64,000 nucleotides of DNA from Parvicella tangerina (GCF_907165195.1 NZ_OU015584.1:2614978-2678977), one strand, 5' to 3'; shown: positions 44,678 through 55,126, counted from the stretch's first letter. Program-made: numbers and translations. Notes: generated from the sequence alone by a model not told the origin.

Positions 44678-45846
44678 AGAAAAAACTTTTCGTCATATCA
44701 TCCCGCGTACCTTATCCTTTGGACAAAGGGGATAAACTAAGATTATATCATCAGCTGAAAGAATTATCCAAAGAGTTTGAAATCTGTCTTTGCTCGCTAG
44801 ATGACAGCGGTAAAGGACACTTATATTTAAATGAGCTAAAAAAGGTAGTCCAGAATACGCACATCATTAAACTAACAAAGTGGCGCATTTATTTGAATCT
44901 GCTATTGGGTGCTTTTGGTCGCAAACCCTACCAAGTTCATTACTTTTATCAAAAGGCTGCTAAGAAAAAGGTAGATCAACTGATCAAATCGTTTCAACCA
45001 GATCATATTTATTGTCAACTTATTCGTGCAGCTGAATATGTTAAGGGGTATCATGAGATTCCCAAAACCATCGATTATCAAGATGCCTTCAGCAAAGGTA
45101 TCGAAAGAAGAATAGATAAAGCAGGTTGGCTAAAAGGGCTTTTCAGATCTGAGCACAAACGTTTATTGAAATACGAAAATCTCACCTTTGATTATTTTGA
45201 TCATCATACAATCATAAGCGAAGAGGATCGCAACTTTATTTTTCATGAAAAGCGAAAACAGATTAAGATTATTCCCAATGGAATTGACACGCATTATTTT
45301 ACGCCAAAGGACGAAGAAAGATCGTATGAATTGCTGTTTGTTGGCAATATGAGCTATGCCCCAAATATCGACAGTGCTAAGTATATTGTTGAAGAAATTA
45401 TGCCACTGATTTGGAAGGAACGACCTCGTGTAAAAGTTCTCATTGCTGGTTCAAACCCCACTCATGAAGTAAAAAAATTGACCAGTGACCTGATCACTAT
45501 CTCTGGCTGGGTTGATGACATCCGAACAGCTTATTTAGATGCAAAAATTTTCATTGCTCCAATGCGAATAGGCAGTGGGTTGCAGAATAAATTATTAGAA
45601 GCCATGTCAATGGAACTTCCATGTATTACCTCTTCACTAGCAAATAAATCTTTGAACGCTCAACATGAGAAAGAGGTGATCGTTTGTTCTTCTTCCTCCT
45701 CCTATGCTAAAGCAGTACTTGAGTTATTGGATAATCAAATGGGTTACGAACGTCTTTCCAAGAGCGGAAGGTCTTTTGTAGAGTCAAAATTCTCCTGGAA
45801 GAAGTCCGTTGAAGAGCTAGCTGTATTGCTCAATTCTTCCCATTAA
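44674..45846 (+). CDS. Glycosyltransferase, GT4-type (stp1-like)
   Basis: A second GT-B enzyme (390 residues) begins MKKKLFVISSRVPYPLDKGDK, the hallmark start of the subgroup found with polysaccharide/exosortase loci. The donor site motif is PMRIGSGLQNKLLEAMSMEL with IIPNGIDTHYF before it. The four-base overlap (ATGA) with the preceding gene shows coupling. The pair probably adds sugars to LPS or an exopolysaccharide. The gene ends against a convergent gene with a four-base overlap. Confidence 0.87.
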   Translation: MKKKLFVISSRVPYPLDKGDKLRLYHQLKELSKEFEICLCSLDDSGKGHLYLNELKKVVQNTHIIKLTKWRIYLNLLLGAFGRKPYQVHYFYQKAAKKKVDQLIKSFQPDHIYCQLIRAAEYVKGYHEIPKTIDYQDAFSKGIERRIDKAGWLKGLFRSEHKRLLKYENLTFDYFDHHTIISEEDRNFIFHEKRKQIKIIPNGIDTHYFTPKDEERSYELLFVGNMSYAPNIDSAKYIVEEIMPLIWKERPRVKVLIAGSNPTHEVKKLTSDLITISGWVDDIRTAYLDAKIFIAPMRIGSGLQNKLLEAMSMELPCITSSLANKSLNAQHEKEVIVCSSSSSYAKAVLELLDNQMGYERLSKSGRSFVESKFSWKKSVEELAVLLNSSH

Positions 45847-46895
45847 TCCTGATCAAAAAAGAAATTTACCAATCCATTGATTTGGGTTAATGTAATGGAT
45901 TCATCTTCGAAAAACTCGTTTACCGCATAATCCAGTTCTTTGTTGCTTATGAAAGCATCCTGATCCTTGTCGAATCGCACAAAATTCTCAGGAATTATTG
46001 TCGCATTTTTCGCTTCAAAACCTTCGTCAGGAAAAGACTCGTTTACTCCATCGCTACTGGCAGTATTGTCTTCTCCAGGTTCATAAGAAAAATAAGCTAT
46101 TGCAGCCTCCTCCCGATCTTCCATTTTGATCTCCTTCACATTTCCTCCAGCGTAAATTACTTCAGAGGTCAATTCCCCATCTCTATCATAAGTATAATAA
46201 GGCCCCTCATTTATTATGACTCCAGAATTCGTATCAAGAACCATTCTACCATAAGCCATTTTACCACCTCCCACACGATTCACTTCTTTCGAGTAGATCA
46301 AGGAGTCTGCATCGATAAGCTCAATTTTCGTAATAATTGTATTCTCATTGTTTTTTGTCACCTTTAGTGTTGGAATCAACGTTTCTTCATCGAGTACAAT
46401 CTTTTCTTTCAACACCCCATTATTATAGTAATTCTCTGATTCGATTACGTTGTAGTCATTAAAGTTCTTGACTTCTTTGACATATCCATTAATGAAATAA
46501 CAAATCAAACTTCCTTCTCCTTGTTTCTTTCCTTTGAATTTCCGCTCTTTTGCTCCGTTGACATAATAGTTGGTAAAGCTTGTCAGAACGCCATCATCGT
46601 AATTTCCTTTGTGCAAAATAAATCCGTTCGAATAAAAATCTTCAATCTTCCCTTTTGCTGGTGCTCCATTTTCGATATTCCGAATTAAAGGCTGCTGCTG
46701 ATAGGAACTGTACAGGTCATATATAGTAATGCCTTCAACATAGTCTTCCACCTCTTCGGGTTCTGGCGAAAAGGTCCCTTCTGGCAGTTGTGTGATGAAA
46801 TCTTGAGCGTTCAGATTAAAATGACTAATGAGTATCAGCATAAGTATTGAACATGATAATCTGACTATCTTTGGTGTAAATTCCTTTAAAAACAT
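45843..46895 (-). CDS. Secreted protein with MORN/YwqK-like repeats and a C-terminal EF-hand
   Basis: The ATG at 46895 gives a signal peptide (MFLKEFTPKIVRLSCSILML ... NLNAQDF). The middle has a run of beta-hairpin repeats of the type found in MORN/YwqK proteins (FYSNGFILHKGNYDDG, YYVNGAKERKFKGKKQGEGS, YFINGYVKEVKNF, YYNNGVLKEKIV). Close to the end lies a canonical calcium loop, DKDQDAFISNKE, with acidic residues at 1, 3, 5 and 12. Function is unknown; it is likely a periplasmic or surface protein. A longer start (46961) would overlap the divergent gene deeply. Confidence 0.72.
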   Translation of the reverse strand: MFLKEFTPKIVRLSCSILMLILISHFNLNAQDFITQLPEGTFSPEPEEVEDYVEGITIYDLYSSYQQQPLIRNIENGAPAKGKIEDFYSNGFILHKGNYDDGVLTSFTNYYVNGAKERKFKGKKQGEGSLICYFINGYVKEVKNFNDYNVIESENYYNNGVLKEKIVLDEETLIPTLKVTKNNENTIITKIELIDADSLIYSKEVNRVGGGKMAYGRMVLDTNSGVIINEGPYYTYDRDGELTSEVIYAGGNVKEIKMEDREEAAIAYFSYEPGEDNTASSDGVNESFPDEGFEAKNATIIPENFVRFDKDQDAFISNKELDYAVNEFFEDESITLTQINGLVNFFFDQD

Positions 46896-46899
46896 TGCG

Positions 46900-47466
46900 T
46901 TGAAAAAATACAAAACTGCGCTTAAGTACGTATGGGTTAGTCTTTTGGTTACAATACTCATTATTTACCTCTTACAACCAACTGCTTTTTCCATCGAAGG
47001 ATTCACTTCTTTTTTTCGGGATAATGAAACAGCGATTCTCATAGGATATGTGCTTCTCGTGCTCATACGATCCATTTTTTTTATTCCAGCGACTGTTCTA
47101 TTAATCTTAGGTATGGCGTTGTATCCAGAGGCTTTTTGGTTTCTGCTGATGGTTAATATGATCGGCATCTTGATTGGAGCAACAGTCATCTATATTGCTG
47201 GCAAACTATTCACTGAAGATGATTTTTTCAGTGCCAAACATCAAGCTAAACTACCAGTGGTAAAAAAGAAGATCAACGAGTATGGATTTTGGATTGTTTT
47301 ATTGTGGTCTTTTTTTCCGTTGGTTCCTACTGATCTTGTTTGCTACATTTCAGGTGCAACACACATGAAATATTTCAAATTCATTTCTGCAGTATTCATT
47401 GGAGAGGTAATACTTGTCAGCACTTATCTGTATACTGGTAAAAGTCTCTTTGAGTGGTTATTCTAA
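46900..47466 (+). CDS. TVP38/TMEM64-family (DedA-like) membrane protein
   Basis: The protein has four to five hydrophobic segments and the family motifs RSIFFIPATVLLILGMALYP and WSFFPLVPTDLVCYISGATH. Members of this SNARE-associated family affect membrane lipid flipping or homeostasis. The start is unclear: an ATG at 46828 lies inside the divergent gene's coding region, and a TTG at 46900 gives the more typical MKKYKTALKYVWVSLL. I report the TTG. Upstream, the divergent gene starts at 46895, so the two initiation sites are almost back to back. The gene ends against the glycosyltransferase on the other strand. Confidence 0.75.
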   Translation: MKKYKTALKYVWVSLLVTILIIYLLQPTAFSIEGFTSFFRDNETAILIGYVLLVLIRSIFFIPATVLLILGMALYPEAFWFLLMVNMIGILIGATVIYIAGKLFTEDDFFSAKHQAKLPVVKKKINEYGFWIVLLWSFFPLVPTDLVCYISGATHMKYFKFISAVFIGEVILVSTYLYTGKSLFEWLF

Positions 47467-48785
47467 ATACCAATCTCTTTTGCTTTTGCAGAGGTTTTCT
47501 CGGGATTCCAGGCGTCTTCATAAGACGCTTTGAAAAAGAGCTCTTTTACGTATGATATGGTTCTAACAAAACGTAAAAAGTACCCATGATAGAGCACCAT
47601 CAACGGAGCAAATGGAATAAAATAGGAAAAAGGCGAATTTTTTCTTTCTCTAAAGAAATTAAATACGATAAGTTTAAAGTAGTTGGTCATGGTGTAAAGA
47701 AAGAAATTCATGATTATGATGATTCCGATCATTCCGGAATAATTAAACAGCATATCAAAAGCATAAACATACCATTTGATATTTAGAATTAAGGTATAGG
47801 TAATGTTTTCTGCAAATGAAGCAAAGTTCAGGAGATTGAAGTTCTCTGATGGAAGCAACACATCTTTGTGCTTTCTCAATCTAAATCTGATCAGTGATTT
47901 ATCCCACCTCAATCGCTGCTTCGCTAACTTTCTAAACGTATTTGGTACGCTGGTTTGACATACTGCCCTATCCTCAAAAACAATCTTATAACCCAGTTTC
48001 CTGTACTTTACAGTAATATCTCCATCCAGCCCTGGACCAATATCCCAGCCTTTAATGTTTCTCAGCACATCCATCCTAAAAGCTCCGAAAGCACCAGAAA
48101 TTATCTTGTAAATTCCGAGATAACTGGAGACCATCCTACCAATACTAATGGCATCAGAATACTCAAACGCCTGCAAGGTAGTTGCCAGACTTTCTTTGTA
48201 GTTTCTAACCATAACATTTCCACCAACGGCTCCTACCCTACTATCTTCATAAAAAGGGATAATGATCTGTTCTATCGCATCCATATCGTAAGAGCAATCA
48301 GCATCCAAATGCACAACGTACTTACCACTTGCCAGACGAAGAGCAGTATTAGCTCCAGAAGCTTTACCCCCTCTCACTTCATTTCTAATGAAGATATCTA
48401 TCAATCCATTCTTTTTCAAGGATCGACAGATCTCCTCTGTATTATCATCAGACCCATCATCTACAATAATCAACTCAAAGTTTTGGTAGGTCTGTTCTCT
48501 CAGTGAGTTGGCTAGTTTATAGATGTGTTTACCTTCATTCTTTCCTGGTACGAGTATGGATATTAGCGGCTGTTCTCTTAAAAAAAGGGCTCTGGCAGCT
48601 GAACGTTTGTCTTTAGTGAAATAACGCTTAACTTTTATGACAATTAAAGCGAGTAGGTCAATGATCAGGTAGCGGAATAATTCAAATGTAAAAAAGAACC
48701 AGAATATTCGAAATAACTTACTGACGCCTACTTCAGAAATATAATTGAGAAAGTTATCTATTTCTATTGAAATCGTTTCTACCAC
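47463..48785 (-). CDS. Processive family-2 glycosyltransferase (polysaccharide synthase)
   Basis: This is a membrane polysaccharide synthase of the cellulose/hyaluronan/alginate synthase type. It has a hydrophobic N-terminal segment, a GT2 catalytic domain with DD109-110 (IIVDDGSDDN), D-A-D 161-163 (HLDADCS), D254 in GLDGD and the QRLRW box at 290-294, then three to four C-terminal helices. The QxxRW motif indicates processive synthesis. It is the last gene of a five-gene operon with an adaptor and a TolC-like protein, and its two-base gap from the previous gene shows coupling. The sugar is unknown. Confidence 0.93.
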   Translation of the reverse strand: MVETISIEIDNFLNYISEVGVSKLFRIFWFFFTFELFRYLIIDLLALIVIKVKRYFTKDKRSAARALFLREQPLISILVPGKNEGKHIYKLANSLREQTYQNFELIIVDDGSDDNTEEICRSLKKNGLIDIFIRNEVRGGKASGANTALRLASGKYVVHLDADCSYDMDAIEQIIIPFYEDSRVGAVGGNVMVRNYKESLATTLQAFEYSDAISIGRMVSSYLGIYKIISGAFGAFRMDVLRNIKGWDIGPGLDGDITVKYRKLGYKIVFEDRAVCQTSVPNTFRKLAKQRLRWDKSLIRFRLRKHKDVLLPSENFNLLNFASFAENITYTLILNIKWYVYAFDMLFNYSGMIGIIIIMNFFLYTMTNYFKLIVFNFFRERKNSPFSYFIPFAPLMVLYHGYFLRFVRTISYVKELFFKASYEDAWNPEKTSAKAKEIGI

Positions 48786-48787
48786 CT

Positions 48788-50227
48788 TTATTCAGAATCT
48801 TTTTCAACATTGCTGGGTGTCCGATCAATGGTTTTCATCAAATTTTGAAGTTGAAGTTCATGTGACGTTGCCGTGTTCAATTTGATCGCGTTCGTTTTAA
48901 TATGAACTTCTACGGTTTTGAAGTTACGCTTCATTAAACTTACCGTGAGATCTGCAATGTCATTAAGTATCTTATTTGCAATTTTTGTGGGTATCTCATT
49001 GAGCGAGAGAACCAGTGTAGAAGCGTCATAAAACGCAATAAAATCTGCTGATCTTAGATTATGTCTAAGAATACCTATCATCTCTGTTATCAAAGACTTT
49101 TGTCTTTCTAACCCTAGTCTTGAATAGATCTCTCCTGCATTGGCGAGATGCATAAAACCAATATTACTGGTATAGTCATTTTGTCTTAGTCGCTCAATCT
49201 CATACTTTAACATGATCTTGAAAACATCATATTTCACCGTACCTGGCACATCATCGAAGTCTCTGGTCGTACTCACATATCCATTAAAAGCTATTGACCT
49301 GCCTTTTCTGGTTAACGTATAATTCTTTATTTCCTTGGAGATCAGGTTTTCGATATGATTGTCGTGATGACAGGAAATACATTTTGCTTTTACGTGATAA
49401 TCCTGATATTTATGATTACACTTTTGACAGGTATGTAGAACCGATGGTTTATCATAATCTACACCAATATGCCGTAGTGTTTTGTTACACTTCGGACAAT
49501 TGAGCTCATCATCTATGGTATTCTGAAAGTCTTTTATCGGACCAATATAGGCACAGGGGAAATGATGTACCATATCTTCTGTTGTGCTATGCGAGCTACT
49601 ACACTGCGGACAAACCTCCCGGTAATTCAAATAAGCTCCACTGCAACTCGTACATAAATAAACACGATCATTAAACGAACTCGTCAGTAAGCCGTCATCT
49701 TCTGCCATTTTAAGGATGGACAACACATTGTGCTCATCCTCTCTTGGAAAGTTGACAGACATTTCAGGATAGTAATACCCTATTCCAGAACGATTGTATG
49801 GATAAGCCTCTAATCGCTTTTTATCTCTGGTAACAAGCAAGTTGAATGTCTTATTGATGACCTCTGCCTCGAATGACATTGACTTTACCTCAAGAACCTC
49901 TTTACTTTTCATTGAGATATCTTTGGTGCGGTCCAATAAAAGTTCAACCTGTTCTAATGAAAAGACAACACCATCTATCAGCTCGTTCACCACAGGATCT
50001 TTGATGGTGACATTCTTTAATAAGAATACTGGTTTAAGATAGACTTCGGCTCTATGATGACGTCTTATCCTGGCTACTATTTCTCTGACAAACTCATCGT
50101 TCACCCCGTCAATGATAATACCATCGTAATAGGCCACACGATCAGAACTCCATCGTTCATTTTCTGACAAGATTCCAAATTCGAAACCTCCAACTTTCAG
50201 CGCGTTATTTTCATAAGTGATCTTCAC
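48788..50227 (-). CDS. Zinc-ribbon (TackOD1-like) protein with a degenerate GGDEF-like domain
   Basis: This cytoplasmic protein (479 residues) has a receiver-like N-terminus (about 1-100), a zinc-ribbon block with pairs C192/C195, C206/C209, C244/C247, C267/C270 and C283/C286, and motifs HHFPCAYIGPIKDF and CPKCNKTLRHIGVDYDKP that match my recollection of the TackOD1 metal-binding family. Residues about 330-430 have the length and helix/strand order of a GGDEF domain but the active-site loop is YDASTL. An RxxD (R392-D395) sits exactly where GGDEF proteins have the inhibitory c-di-GMP site. A regulator of the downstream synthase is likely by position. Confidence 0.75.
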   Translation of the reverse strand: MKITYENNALKVGGFEFGILSENERWSSDRVAYYDGIIIDGVNDEFVREIVARIRRHHRAEVYLKPVFLLKNVTIKDPVVNELIDGVVFSLEQVELLLDRTKDISMKSKEVLEVKSMSFEAEVINKTFNLLVTRDKKRLEAYPYNRSGIGYYYPEMSVNFPREDEHNVLSILKMAEDDGLLTSSFNDRVYLCTSCSGAYLNYREVCPQCSSSHSTTEDMVHHFPCAYIGPIKDFQNTIDDELNCPKCNKTLRHIGVDYDKPSVLHTCQKCNHKYQDYHVKAKCISCHHDNHIENLISKEIKNYTLTRKGRSIAFNGYVSTTRDFDDVPGTVKYDVFKIMLKYEIERLRQNDYTSNIGFMHLANAGEIYSRLGLERQKSLITEMIGILRHNLRSADFIAFYDASTLVLSLNEIPTKIANKILNDIADLTVSLMKRNFKTVEVHIKTNAIKLNTATSHELQLQNLMKTIDRTPSNVEKDSE

Positions 50228-50237
50228 AAATGCTCTT

Positions 50238-51323
50238 TTACCATTTATTTACCCTAACAGTTACATTCATCTTATAGAAAGCCTTCCATTTAATTTCACT
50301 TTCGTTCTCTATTGGAAAAATATCGACAGCTATTGCACGGGTGGTACTTTCATATTTCTTTTGAAACTCCTCTGGCATTCTGTAGGTGGCAAAATAGAAC
50401 CGTTTGATATGTCCGGTACTTTTTTCTCCATCAGGAAAAATGATCGTTACCTCATCACCTTCCTTGAAATAAGCTAAGTCTTCTTGATTGAAAAATGCCT
50501 TGATATAAATATCCTTCTTTTCATGCATATTAAGAATGCTTTCAGACTTCAGCGCCACTTCATAATCACTTTTGTAAAGTCTGGTGATCGTGCCTGCCGT
50601 TGGAGCAAGGTAATACCTAAGAACTGGTCCATTACCAAGGGTACTGTAATTCGAAGTCAACGTTGCATCCTTTTCTATAATAGCGGCAGAACTCATTGAA
50701 TTTAACTCGGCAATTAGTGCTTGAAAAACCTTATTCTCATCTTGCAATGCCAGTATTTCAAGTTCTAGTTTCTCCACCTCTTTCTTATAACTGTCCATCT
50801 TAGATTTTGGAGATATTTCTAGAATTACCTCATTCACCAACTTATCTATTTCTGTGTTGTAAAAGTTGATAAGCTCTTGCTTTTCTTTTATCTCAATTAG
50901 ATTTAGTTGAATGTTTTTATTCAGCTGGTAGACTTCCTTTTCTTTCCAGGTGGAATTATCCTTATCATCCAAAATCCCCGTTAAATCCCCACTCAAACTT
51001 TGTTCAAAGGCCGCTTTTTGATCTTCATACGAGTAATAGGAAAACAGTGTATCTCCCTTGATCACATCATCACCTTCAAACTTGTAAAAAACATCTATGG
51101 TAATATCTTCTGGAACTCGCACCACTAAACTCTTAAACAATACATGACCAGGGGCTGAAACGTATAGTACGCGCGTAAAAGCGTACCTAAAAATAAAGAA
51201 AATGATCAAGCCTAAGATCAAAAAATAGACGATCTTATCCCAGTTTACCTTTTTCTTTTGCTTCGGCTTTTCCTCGAGGTTTCGGAGGACACTGTCTTTT
51301 CTATTGAAATATATATTTTTCAA
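50238..51323 (-). CDS. HlyD-type membrane fusion (periplasmic adaptor) protein
   Basis: The adaptor has a basic cytosolic start, one membrane helix (about residues 31-49, IVYFLILGLIIFFIFRYAF), split lipoyl/biotinyl half-domains (VSAPGHVLFKSLVVRVPEDI and YYLAPTAGTITRLYKSDYEV), a coiled-coil hairpin (about 115-210) and a beta-barrel end (FFNQEDLAYFKEGDEVTIIF). Such proteins bridge an inner-membrane machine to a TolC-type outer-membrane channel. The start overlaps the end of the TolC-like gene by four bases and the next gene follows after ten, so it belongs to the same operon. An Alg44-like role is plausible. Confidence 0.88.
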   Translation of the reverse strand: MKNIYFNRKDSVLRNLEEKPKQKKKVNWDKIVYFLILGLIIFFIFRYAFTRVLYVSAPGHVLFKSLVVRVPEDITIDVFYKFEGDDVIKGDTLFSYYSYEDQKAAFEQSLSGDLTGILDDKDNSTWKEKEVYQLNKNIQLNLIEIKEKQELINFYNTEIDKLVNEVILEISPKSKMDSYKKEVEKLELEILALQDENKVFQALIAELNSMSSAAIIEKDATLTSNYSTLGNGPVLRYYLAPTAGTITRLYKSDYEVALKSESILNMHEKKDIYIKAFFNQEDLAYFKEGDEVTIIFPDGEKSTGHIKRFYFATYRMPEEFQKKYESTTRAIAVDIFPIENESEIKWKAFYKMNVTVRVNKW

Positions 51324-53395
51324 GGATCAAACTTTAACAACCTTTCAAGATCATGAATAATAAAACGTTTGGTTTGCAACAAGCCACTGAGTTCATCAAT
51401 TTTCTTATTCATCTCAATAGCATCTGCAAAATCTTCTGGCCTAAGTGCTATCGTGAAGTCATTACCTACGTAACCCCCAAGTCTTTTTTCTAGATAAGAA
51501 GCCGTGACATTCTCATAACACATAAAAAAGACTTCCCCTCCTTGATCGAAGACTTTGTTTACCGCTTCCTCAGGAAAGTAGGTAGGTAAACTAGCAGCTA
51601 ATTTTAAACTGTTAGATTGACACCAAAGATGAACAGTTTCGAACATCTTAACATAAGCTTCAGCATAAAAGGCTTTCTTGTCATCCCAATCGTCAAAAGT
51701 TTGCGGCTCCACGTCCAAGTGAACTCCATCTACTAAACTCAGGTCCTTTCCAGATAACTTATCTTCTAGAATCTCAGTAGAGAAATTATTAATAAATTCA
51801 TTATCCCCAATCATTATATCTACTGTGATCCCAAACTGTTGGCACTTTTCAGCAAACTCATTAAACTTAGCGGATTCAGAAGATGAGCTGACTACAACTC
51901 CAGAGATATTATTGATCATGCAATAATTTACCAATGTTCCTATATCATGAATAGCCAAGGTTTTGGACCATACATAAACTTCTTTTGGGTCTTTTTGAAC
52001 CTTTTTGATCTCCAGATCTGCCAACTCCAATGGTTTAATGAGTTGATCAACGTCTAATTGGGGAGCTACACTTAACATCTTAAGTACGTAGAGATATAAT
52101 TGTTGCTTTAGGTCTATGAGTTCGATATCTACAGACATTGATTCATCCAACCACCTCAGCGCCTTCAGGGGATTAAAGTCTAATGTATTGACATCATACC
52201 TTGCCTGCTCCTTGCGGAGCATCTCCTCAAGTTTAAGTTTTTTGTAGTAAAAAGCATTGAATTGCTTTAGTTTATAACGAAATTCATACAAATAGCTTAA
52301 AAGATCATTCTTAAGACTAATTTGCCCAGCATCTTCTTCATAATCTCCCATCAAAATTTGCTGTTTTTCAAGTTTCATCAGCTCTGCTCGCTCTTTCTTT
52401 TGAAATGAGATTGGCATTCCTACTCCAACGCCAAGTGTCAGAAAAGCCCTGTTATCAAGTGGATTATTGATCAGATCATAATAGTTGTAACGTGAATAAA
52501 TGTTCAAACTAACCCTATCAATAAAACGATTCTCCAGTTCTATATTTCTCATCATCAAATGCTTACTTGAATCAGAGCTCTCTGTAGATAGCATGTCCAG
52601 ACTATAGTTGTAATCTATATCAATAAGAGGAAGTGATCCCATTGAGTCCAGCTGAATGTCTTGTGAAATATTGTCGTTATAGTCTTTGTATATACTATAG
52701 AGGCTGCTAATCTCCGCATAGCTCTCTAAATTATTGAGAAGTTCTTCATGCGTTATTTTTCCTAAGTTTTGTAACTGATAAGAAATTGCCACTCGTTTTT
52801 CTGCCAATAAGAGACGTTCATCAAGAATTTCAATCTTGAACCGATTAAATTGATAAATCACCCTATGCCAATTCTGAAGTATATCTTGATTAACGTAGTT
52901 ACCTTTATGCTGATCGAGTTCGGCCAAAACACTTCTATTCTTTAGTACCTGACTTTTTTTCTTATTCTCCAGAAAACCATTATTCAGAATATTCCAGGAC
53001 ACTTGAGCTTGTACTCTTGATTTATACAAAATATTATCAGCCACCTCCATTCCTGGAGAGGTATTATAAATATAGCCAGCCCCCCAGCTTACCCCCCAGT
53101 CTTTAGCCACAAGATCACTTTCTGCCTTCATAATTTTCGCTTTAAGATCTTGACTGTAAACCGTTGAATCATCTAGTATGAATAGCTTTTTTCCTGCACT
53201 TAATTCACCGGTCATATGATCAACGTCATAACCTATATAAGCGCGCTCCCAAACCGCATACATTTCTTGAATCAATGAGTCGACTACCCTCTGACTGAAT
53301 AAAGGACTAGCAAGCATCATTATCAAAACTACAAGGTATGTTCGGGGTTTTCTCAAGTAGAAATTTTGGACGACAAATGTAAGGCTATTGTCCAA
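51320..53395 (-). CDS. Fusion: TolC-like outer-membrane channel plus glycosidase-like barrel
   Basis: Residues about 36-460 look like a TolC-family efflux duct: helical repeats (IQLDSMGS; VSWNILNNGFLENKKKSQVL; LNNLESYAEISSLYSIYKDY) and short barrel strands such as RAFLTLGVGVGMPISFQKKE. Residues 474-691 form a different domain with TIM-barrel beta-strands (ISGVVVSS; GITVDIMIG; KLAASLP; EVFFMCYENV) and VDGVHLDVEP (555-564), which resembles the GH18-type acid motif D-G-x-D/H-x-D-x-E, with E563 as candidate acid. The first 35 residues carry a signal sequence. It is the second gene of the operon, 51 bases after the channel gene. Confidence 0.82.
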   Translation of the reverse strand: MDNSLTFVVQNFYLRKPRTYLVVLIMMLASPLFSQRVVDSLIQEMYAVWERAYIGYDVDHMTGELSAGKKLFILDDSTVYSQDLKAKIMKAESDLVAKDWGVSWGAGYIYNTSPGMEVADNILYKSRVQAQVSWNILNNGFLENKKKSQVLKNRSVLAELDQHKGNYVNQDILQNWHRVIYQFNRFKIEILDERLLLAEKRVAISYQLQNLGKITHEELLNNLESYAEISSLYSIYKDYNDNISQDIQLDSMGSLPLIDIDYNYSLDMLSTESSDSSKHLMMRNIELENRFIDRVSLNIYSRYNYYDLINNPLDNRAFLTLGVGVGMPISFQKKERAELMKLEKQQILMGDYEEDAGQISLKNDLLSYLYEFRYKLKQFNAFYYKKLKLEEMLRKEQARYDVNTLDFNPLKALRWLDESMSVDIELIDLKQQLYLYVLKMLSVAPQLDVDQLIKPLELADLEIKKVQKDPKEVYVWSKTLAIHDIGTLVNYCMINNISGVVVSSSSESAKFNEFAEKCQQFGITVDIMIGDNEFINNFSTEILEDKLSGKDLSLVDGVHLDVEPQTFDDWDDKKAFYAEAYVKMFETVHLWCQSNSLKLAASLPTYFPEEAVNKVFDQGGEVFFMCYENVTASYLEKRLGGYVGNDFTIALRPEDFADAIEMNKKIDELSGLLQTKRFIIHDLERLLKFDP

Positions 53396-53446: not shown

Positions 53447-55126
53447 TTAACGCAGGATCTTCCGAACAAAGGCAACTGTGAAATATGCCATCATAAAGAC
53501 ACCAAACCACCCCTCTAGAGGCGCTACCACTTTGAAAAAACCAGTGGGCACACACTCCCCATAACCAATGGTTAACCAAGTAACCGCACTAAAATACAAG
53601 CTATCTATAATCTTCTCAAAAATTGATAAGTCACTCGCGATACAGCTAATTGCTCCATGATCCGTAATTTCAAAGACTACGTAGATCATACTGAACATAC
53701 CGTAAAGCACGAAAATACTGAGTAATACACGTACTGGACTTGTTGCATAAAGCCCCATCCAATCAAATACTAACTTTTGAAACCCAACATTAAAATAATT
53801 GACAATTTTCTGATACCACTTTGCCTTCCTAGATTCATGCAAGATATTCGCTAACTCGCTTCGTTTAAATTCAATGTATGCTTTGTCTTCGTCTTCATAT
53901 TGTCCAAGGTTATGAAATTCTTCCTTCAGCAACCTAAATTGTTCTGCCTTCTGATTATGAGAAGTCTTTTTCTGTCCGCCAATGATCTTCGGAATGTCAT
54001 TGCCTTCCCATGAAATGAATAACTTTCCAAGGTTTCTAACTCCATAGAGGTACAACGTCTCCACCTCAACAGGAGTTACGCCTTTCTTGAAGTCTATGAT
54101 ATTTTGAATAATTGCATTAGACAAATCTATAACTTCACACTTCGTAACGCGCATATCTACATAGCTAGACAAAATACTACTCTTAATGCTAATCGTCTTA
54201 ACATAGCTTTCGAAAAATGACACCCTACCTTCACCAAACTCAACTTCATCCAGAACGATGGATGCTTCTGGGAAATGAGCCATTCTAAAACTTACGGGAC
54301 GTTCTCCAAATTTAGCTCTTCTAAACAGCAACCTACCATCAGCCAATTCTATTTCTTCAAATGACACCTCAGTCTTTCCAAATTGACACCTTCTGAAATC
54401 CACTTTTCCAGTACCAAAGTTTACCTTTGAAAAATCTACAAAAGGACCATTGAACACAGCACGATCAAAGTTCACATCTCCTTTACCAAATTCAGCAAAC
54501 CTAAATAACACCCCTCCATCACCAAAATCAACGTTCTTGAAGTTTACTCTCCCATCATTGAACTGAGCATTAACAAACGATATATCTCCATTGATGAAGG
54601 ATGCATTTTCAAAGTTCAAGGTTCCCGAACCAAAATCAGTATACTGGAAACTGTTGAACCCTTCACTGTAAGAAGTATTTTTGAAGAGCACGGTATCGGT
54701 ATGAAACCACGCCTTTGAAAAGCTCAGGTTTCCAGCTCCAAAATGTGCATCACTAAAGTTAGAGGCTTCACCAATAAAGTGAGCAAAAGAAAAATCTACC
54801 TCTTTATCTGCCTCAAATAGGGCTCCAGTAGCTTTGAAGTTCTTGATTTCAACCCAACTGTCCTTTTCAAGGTTATACTTTTTTCTATAATCGTGTAGCG
54901 AAAAATTATGCACCAAACAATCGCTGATATCCACCTCTTCTCCATCAAAAATTGATTGATACAGCTTATCAAGGTCCACAACGGCTAACTTCTGTCTTTT
55001 GACAAGGTTTTTTGTTTCGTCTCTGAAAGAGACTCGAGCAGTTTGAGGATAAACCTTTCCATTCACCTCAATCTCTTCGTCTGCCACCTTAACAGAGTAG
55101 CTAACTATTTTTTTAACGACTCGCAT
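53447..55126 (-). CDS. K+-channel-like protein with an N-terminal 12-residue-repeat solenoid
   Basis: The N-terminal third (residues 109-312) is 17 consecutive 12-residue repeats with consensus x-V-x-F-x-x-A-x-F-G-x-G, for example VNFKNVDFGDG, VNFDRAVFNGP and VDFRRCQFGKT. It must form a beta-solenoid. A helical linker follows, then two membrane segments (about 465-487 and 536-555) flanking the selectivity filter TIGYG at 519-523, as in potassium channels. The solenoid lacks a signal and is probably cytoplasmic. It is the first gene of the operon with the TolC-like protein. A few pentapeptide-repeat channels are known; the 12-residue period is less usual. Confidence 0.85.
   Translation of the reverse strand: MRVVKKIVSYSVKVADEEIEVNGKVYPQTARVSFRDETKNLVKRQKLAVVDLDKLYQSIFDGEEVDISDCLVHNFSLHDYRKKYNLEKDSWVEIKNFKATGALFEADKEVDFSFAHFIGEASNFSDAHFGAGNLSFSKAWFHTDTVLFKNTSYSEGFNSFQYTDFGSGTLNFENASFINGDISFVNAQFNDGRVNFKNVDFGDGGVLFRFAEFGKGDVNFDRAVFNGPFVDFSKVNFGTGKVDFRRCQFGKTEVSFEEIELADGRLLFRRAKFGERPVSFRMAHFPEASIVLDEVEFGEGRVSFFESYVKTISIKSSILSSYVDMRVTKCEVIDLSNAIIQNIIDFKKGVTPVEVETLYLYGVRNLGKLFISWEGNDIPKIIGGQKKTSHNQKAEQFRLLKEEFHNLGQYEDEDKAYIEFKRSELANILHESRKAKWYQKIVNYFNVGFQKLVFDWMGLYATSPVRVLLSIFVLYGMFSMIYVVFEITDHGAISCIASDLSIFEKIIDSLYFSAVTWLTIGYGECVPTGFFKVVAPLEGWFGVFMMAYFTVAFVRKILR
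54191..54802 (-). repeat. Seventeen 36-base coding repeats (12-residue units)
   Basis: The block encodes seventeen unbroken 12-residue units; sequence drift at the DNA level is high, but the F, A, F and G positions are kept in most units. I counted units from residue 109 to 312 of the channel protein. Confidence 0.8.

Follow-up and report, generated by a model that had tools for sequence, protein, structure and literature searches.

Organization of the locus

We analyzed a window of 64,000 nucleotides of the Parvicella tangerina genome (GCF_907165195.1, NZ_OU015584.1:2614978-2678977), in which four tightly packed minus-strand genes, at positions 47463-53395 counted from the first letter of the window, had been proposed to synthesize and export an exopolysaccharide. 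The open reading frames (ORFs) and their spacing were recovered exactly where the original prediction had placed them. The genes, identified by ORF analysis of the window, and their features are as follows:

51320-53395, minus strand: outer-membrane protein (OMP), a TolC-type channel plus barrel
52013..53395, minus strand: OMP residues 1-461, signal-peptide-like N terminus and TolC/OEP-type channel (PF02321, 31.8 bits, cut-off 22)
51320..52012, minus strand: OMP residues 462-691, GH18-like (beta/alpha)8 barrel (alignment, Pfam relatives, AlphaFold2 (AF2) model, fold search)
51704..51721, minus strand: HLDVEP motif, residues 559-564, containing D561 and E563, the candidate catalytic residues, where strand 4 ends
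50238-51323, minus strand: HlyD-type periplasmic adaptor with one transmembrane segment (31-49), overlapping the OMP gene by 4 bases (TIGR00998, 2.7e-5; conserved in all loci)
48788-50227, minus strand: TackOD1/GGDEF regulator, 10 bases from the HlyD gene; receiver-like region 1-110, TackOD1 zinc domain 122-305, degenerate GGDEF 330-470
49313..49864, minus strand: TackOD1 domain with 11 invariant Cys and one invariant His (PF18551, 1.8e-48)
49043..49054, minus strand: RxxD (R392-D395), I-site-like; five residues later DASTL replaces GG(D/E)EF
47463-48785, minus strand: membrane GT2, putative processive synthase, 2 bases from the regulator gene (PF00535, 1.3e-29)

The outer-membrane pore, which is TolC-type and not TPR-coupled, the periplasmic part and the regulator thus all lie within one operon, whose genes would be co-transcribed. 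Scans for promoters and terminators gave counts no different from chance (32 versus 26.6 +/- 6.0 and 5 versus 4.9).

Conservation of the four-gene set

TackOD1 matches above cut-off occurred in 40 of the 399 genomes from the order and in 12 of the 395 from the phylum, and the DNA around these matches was searched with profiles grown from the window's proteins. Separation of the homologues in other genomes had been named beforehand as fatal to the claim of novelty; the neighborhoods collected across Bacteroidota hold all four genes together, in the order OMP-HlyD-TackOD1-GT2 and on the same strand, at 50/50 TackOD1 loci (49 genomes, window included, one of which carries two operon copies). A few loci show insertions or contig-edge truncations. 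As the genomes were chosen for having TackOD1, these counts describe the companions of TackOD1 and not the frequency of the operon. Clustering of all neighboring ORFs revealed no fifth gene common to the loci beyond local synteny. This co-location in every relative examined supports the earlier view of a single machine dedicated to exopolysaccharide synthesis and export.

Outside Bacteroidota, TackOD1-GT2-HlyD trios occur in alpha- and gammaproteobacteria: Photobacterium, Plesiomonas, Palleronia, Roseibium, Phyllobacterium and Alisedimentitalea (plasmid records), galE coming next in the last of these. On Aeromonas caviae pKAM329_3 (L112) the order is TackOD1-GT2-TolC-HlyD, and the TolC protein (694 residues) carries the same barrel at its end, with HLDLEVE. 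This small mobilizable plasmid (MOBP) holds the full four-gene set near toxin-antitoxin and recombinase genes, which suggests that the set is probably transferable between hosts. In Methylocystis the barrel is an ORF of its own, flanked by the genes for HlyD and TolC (E 7e-8, HFDVEP, with a twin-arginine-like leader). That the barrel is fused to the channel in some lineages and a separate neighbor in Methylocystis is good evidence that the two cooperate. GT2, HlyD and a TackOD1 fragment stand in a row in S. medicae; around the haloarchaeal TackOD1 of Haladaptatus the neighborhood is unrelated to the operon.

Synthase

All elements of a processive signature are present in the GT2: D110, D161/D163, D254/D256 and Q290-R-x-R-W294 are invariant in an alignment of 42 GT2 sequences, and polymerization is predicted from the sequence. 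The best NCBIfam model, PgaC_IcaA, scores 169 bits, well under its cut-off of 422; NodC reaches 65 bits and CelA 27.6 bits (cut-off 699). Matches of the GT2 profile in the PDB include chondroitin and hyaluronan synthases. In an IQ-TREE phylogeny rooted at the midpoint, the GT2s linked to TackOD1 fall into a single group (support 100/96) that is distinct from PgaC, IcaA and other GT2s; within it, the Bacteroidota sequences make up a clean subgroup (100/99). The sole row of this group labelled "other" is that of S. medicae, whose GT2 is the one adjoined by HlyD and the TackOD1 fragment.

Channel and fused barrel

The original prediction had placed a hydrolase within the channel protein, and this is upheld to the extent that the barrel is real, with eight strands and a mean pLDDT of 81.8 in the AF2 model. 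The OMP has a hydrophobic segment at residues 20-38 (hydropathy scan). Alignment of the C-terminal 230 residues in 38 members showed W15, H98, D100, E102, M164, Y166 and D194 among the invariants. PF00704 (GH18) matches 7 of the 38, with a best value of 1.6e-6; the window's own barrel has no PF00704 match in the Pfam search. The top PDB sequence match of the barrel profile is a C. fimi enzyme (7.1e-6), followed by chitinases at 0.03 and weaker. In the AF2 model D/E comes immediately after strand 4 and M-x-Y-E lies at strand 6, an arrangement shared with GH18; the motif reads HLDxE, the first Asp positions of the GH18 DxxDxDxE being absent. Fold matches by VIA-align were headed by Cwp19 (Z 18), GH18 chitinases (about 16), PgaB (16.3) and PslG (15.9). 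Since TIM barrels are common, the argument for GH18 is drawn from the sequence motif and not from the fold matches. The termini of TolC lie on the periplasmic side, and the barrel is therefore likely to be periplasmic.

Two observations bear on the exported polymer. GH18 enzymes exploit the N-acetyl group of their substrate. At four loci (L058, L060-L062) HlyD and TackOD1 are separated by a TviB-like UDP-HexNAc 6-dehydrogenase, which falls into one cluster at all four (L058 6256-7620, plus strand; L060 9719-11083, minus strand; 453-463 bits for the two scanned). GH18 chemistry together with this dehydrogenase favors an N-acetylated sugar, and an N-acetylated hexosamine-type polymer is the favored candidate. 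At the same four loci the barrel is absent or a remnant without the motif. As L058, L060 and L066 share one GT2 clade, this correlation looks like a single evolutionary event, and is a hint rather than a statistic.

Regulator and the missing c-di-GMP enzymes

The third gene had been described as a zinc-ribbon/degenerate GGDEF-like protein; both parts were found, the zinc ribbon being the known Pfam domain TackOD1 (PF18551). TackOD1 has been described as a Cys-rich, zinc-ribbon-like archaeal output domain of obscure function, linked to receivers in many members and present also in some bacteria (PMC5847659). The present association with a GT2 operon differs from that description and, if true, would supply a functional context for the domain. 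PDB profile matches of the window protein comprise receiver domains over residues ~6-115 and GGDEF over 331-436 (2.5e-10), the Pfam GGDEF match being weak and below threshold (0.0027). No transmembrane segment was detected in it by the hydropathy scan. The Palleronia protein has a true receiver domain ahead of TackOD1. Two regulators lack the GGDEF part, at L069 (317 aa) and in Alisedimentitalea (312 aa), so that TackOD1 seems to be the core of the protein.

At six loci of one family a small ORF of 106-119 aa separates HlyD from TackOD1 (for example L064 7789-8118, plus strand; L068 9756-10112, minus strand; L059 8950-9276, minus strand). It matches the TackOD1-protein profile and nothing in Pfam, and may represent a receiver-like domain encoded on its own. 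One genome shows, between TackOD1 and GT2, a 1-kb insertion with no clear gene (L095 9802-10826, plus strand).

The RxxD motif stands at I-site spacing; of the 54 aligned sequences, 33 have the R and 49 the D. Most Flavobacteriales members retain the motif, as do Photobacterium, Plesiomonas and Aeromonas. None of the aligned operon regulators has an intact GG(D/E)EF, the only intact motif (GGEEF) belonging to a separate Roseibium GGDEF protein picked up by the profile. Two other degenerate GGDEF proteins, PelD and BcsE, bind cyclic di-GMP (c-di-GMP) through an RxxD-type site (PMC8461298), and MxdA of the Shewanella Mxd system also binds c-di-GMP (PMC7666153, PMC11395469). The complete P. tangerina genome has no GGDEF protein besides the operon regulator, and no EAL, PilZ or DAC protein; in 48 other carrier genomes the TackOD1 protein is itself the sole GGDEF match. 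The search does work in the phylum, as 108 of 198 sampled Bacteroidota genomes match above cut-off. A c-di-GMP-type regulator in genomes without other GGDEF proteins is the least expected feature of the locus, and one that the original prediction had not foreseen. As carriers lack a GGDEF enzyme, the signal is probably not GGDEF-made c-di-GMP; another source, such as a CD-NTase, is possible. Cyclic di-AMP was also considered, and the genome encodes no DAC cyclase. If true, this raises the question of what a c-di-GMP-type receptor binds in bacteria without a GGDEF enzyme.

Neighboring genes

A K+-channel-like gene had been noted 51 bases upstream in the same direction. Its position and strand are correct (53447-55126, minus strand; pentapeptide-repeat protein with a two-transmembrane ion channel domain, Ion_trans_2, by Pfam), but it is not conserved with the operon. 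Among the loci examined it recurs only at L002/L104 (one congener, same contig) and is missing in the other congener, L003/L099, of which ~2.6 kb of upstream sequence is present; we rejected it as a part of the system. On the other side, a VTT-domain gene (46828-47466, plus strand) converges on the GT2 gene with a 4-base overlap. Its listed start overlaps a MORN/EF-hand-like ORF (45843-46961, minus strand) by 134 bases on the opposite strand, so that one start or the other is probably wrong.

Proposed mechanism and alternatives

We propose, with a probability of about 0.78, that the locus is a synthase-dependent exopolysaccharide machine, with synthesis by GT2, control by the TackOD1 protein, export through HlyD and TolC-type components and trimming by the GH18-like barrel. 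The membrane GT2 would polymerize a nucleotide sugar and move the chain across the inner membrane. The direction of control would run from the cytoplasmic TackOD1 protein to the synthase, which it would turn on or off in the manner of PelD and probably of MxdA. The chain would pass through the periplasm and the outer membrane by way of the HlyD adaptor and the TolC-type channel, and the barrel at the C terminus of the channel, probably in the periplasm, would trim or release it during export.

Several points weigh against this proposal. Bacteroidota members are so far without a demonstrated polymer, phenotype or enzyme activity. An intact barrel is missing at L058, L060-L062 and L066, so that trimming is not universal. 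The PF13437 (HlyD_3) match of the adaptor (0.0014) is under the Pfam cut-off on its own, the AF2 model of the TackOD1 protein, from three sequences, has a pLDDT of only 36, and transmembrane segments were predicted by a crude hydropathy scan.

TolC/HlyD pairs are most frequent in efflux and type I secretion, and the GT2 might accordingly modify a glycolipid or the cell wall beside an unrelated channel for small-molecule efflux. This is very improbable: no RND, MFS or ABC pump is among the four conserved genes, and the conserved inner-membrane partner at all 50 loci is the GT2, with its processive QxxRW signature. The barrel, for its part, could be a non-catalytic domain that binds or guides the polymer, as several GH18-fold lectins or inhibitors among its fold matches and its loss from some Bacteroidota loci would suggest; we consider this unlikely, given that H98, D100, E102 and M-x-Y are invariant in the 38 members and lie where strands 4 and 6 end, the placement known from GH18.

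A stronger competitor is membership of the Shewanella Mxd family, with c-di-GMP as the regulator, bound by the degenerate GGDEF domain. The kinds and order of the genes TackOD1/GGDEF-GT2-HlyD fit mxdA-B-C as described (PMC7666153, PMC3691769, PMC3409153), and the retained RxxD agrees with such binding. Against it stand the lack of any other GGDEF protein in P. tangerina and the 48 other carriers, when more than half of the sampled phylum has one, the lack of EAL and PilZ in P. tangerina, and the two members devoid of a GGDEF domain. It is a serious possibility that falls short of even odds, and if true the poorly understood Mxd polymer would gain a broader family from which its chemistry might be learned.

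The proposed synthesis and export machine could further represent a distinct synthase-dependent class beyond the five usual polymers, present in at least two phyla, with its hydrolase built into the channel and a TackOD1/degenerate-GGDEF switch re-purposed for another signal in organisms without GGDEF-made c-di-GMP. We advance this tentatively, at close to even odds; if true, a compact polymer-export machine with a built-in hydrolase joins the known set.

Comparison with known systems

A published survey lists five synthase-dependent polymers, cellulose, acetylated cellulose, poly-N-acetylglucosamine (PNAG), alginate and Pel (PMC7112194), and none of these systems fits the locus. A match to Pel, Alg or Bcs had been named beforehand as an outcome that would undo the claim of novelty; the locus is none of these, and it is not Pga either. 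PNAG synthesis (PgaABCD) resembles it in that the GT2 is nearest to the PgaC/IcaA model and the barrel has the PgaB hydrolase domain among its best fold matches; however, the locus has no deacetylase among its conserved genes, no PgaD or PgaA porin, and a GT2 outside the PgaC/IcaA group. In Pel, PelF belongs to GT4, PelD carries a GAF domain and lacks TackOD1, and export proceeds via PelB/C and not via TolC/HlyD. The transferase of the present operon is a GT2, no GT4 being found in it, and no further conserved gene such as PelG was found among the neighbors of the 50 loci. The likeness to Pel lies in the degenerate GGDEF protein PelD, with RxxD, as regulatory subunit (PMC8461298) and in a periplasmic hydrolase. 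Zymomonas BcsZC, a hydrolase fused to an outer-membrane pore, is a precedent for the channel-barrel fusion (PMC7112194), but hydrolase, pore and synthase of Bcs belong to other families and the GT2 is not BcsA-type. The mixed-linkage glucan system of S. meliloti (bgsA/bgsB) was also considered; BgsA is cellulose-synthase-like by description and the window GT2 is PgaC-like. Vibrio mfpABC was set aside: as described in abstracts it is a membrane-fusion-protein locus, with no link to GT2 or GGDEF seen there.

The original prediction recognized no named system with this set of genes, and thereby overlooked mxdABCD of Shewanella oneidensis, whose core parts, alike in kind and order to TackOD1-GT2-HlyD, are a degenerate GGDEF effector, a GT2 and an efflux/HlyD-like protein, arranged as in Photobacterium and Plesiomonas (PMC7666153, PMC3691769, PMC3409153). 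The mxdABCD genes are needed for three-dimensional biofilm, and an exopolysaccharide has been proposed as their product (PMC7666153, PMC3691769, PMC3409153); aggregation and biofilm structure are lost in the mutants (PMC3691769). At the present locus, as in Mxd, which is known here from published descriptions, a degenerate GGDEF protein, a GT2 and HlyD are adjacent in one operon. Mxd as described differs in having no TolC-barrel fusion and an MxdD of obscure function, and in a host that uses c-di-GMP; the Bacteroidota order OMP-HlyD-TackOD1-GT2 also differs from that of mxdABCD. Since the link is drawn from gene order and published descriptions, we file the locus as Mxd-like, and not as Mxd.

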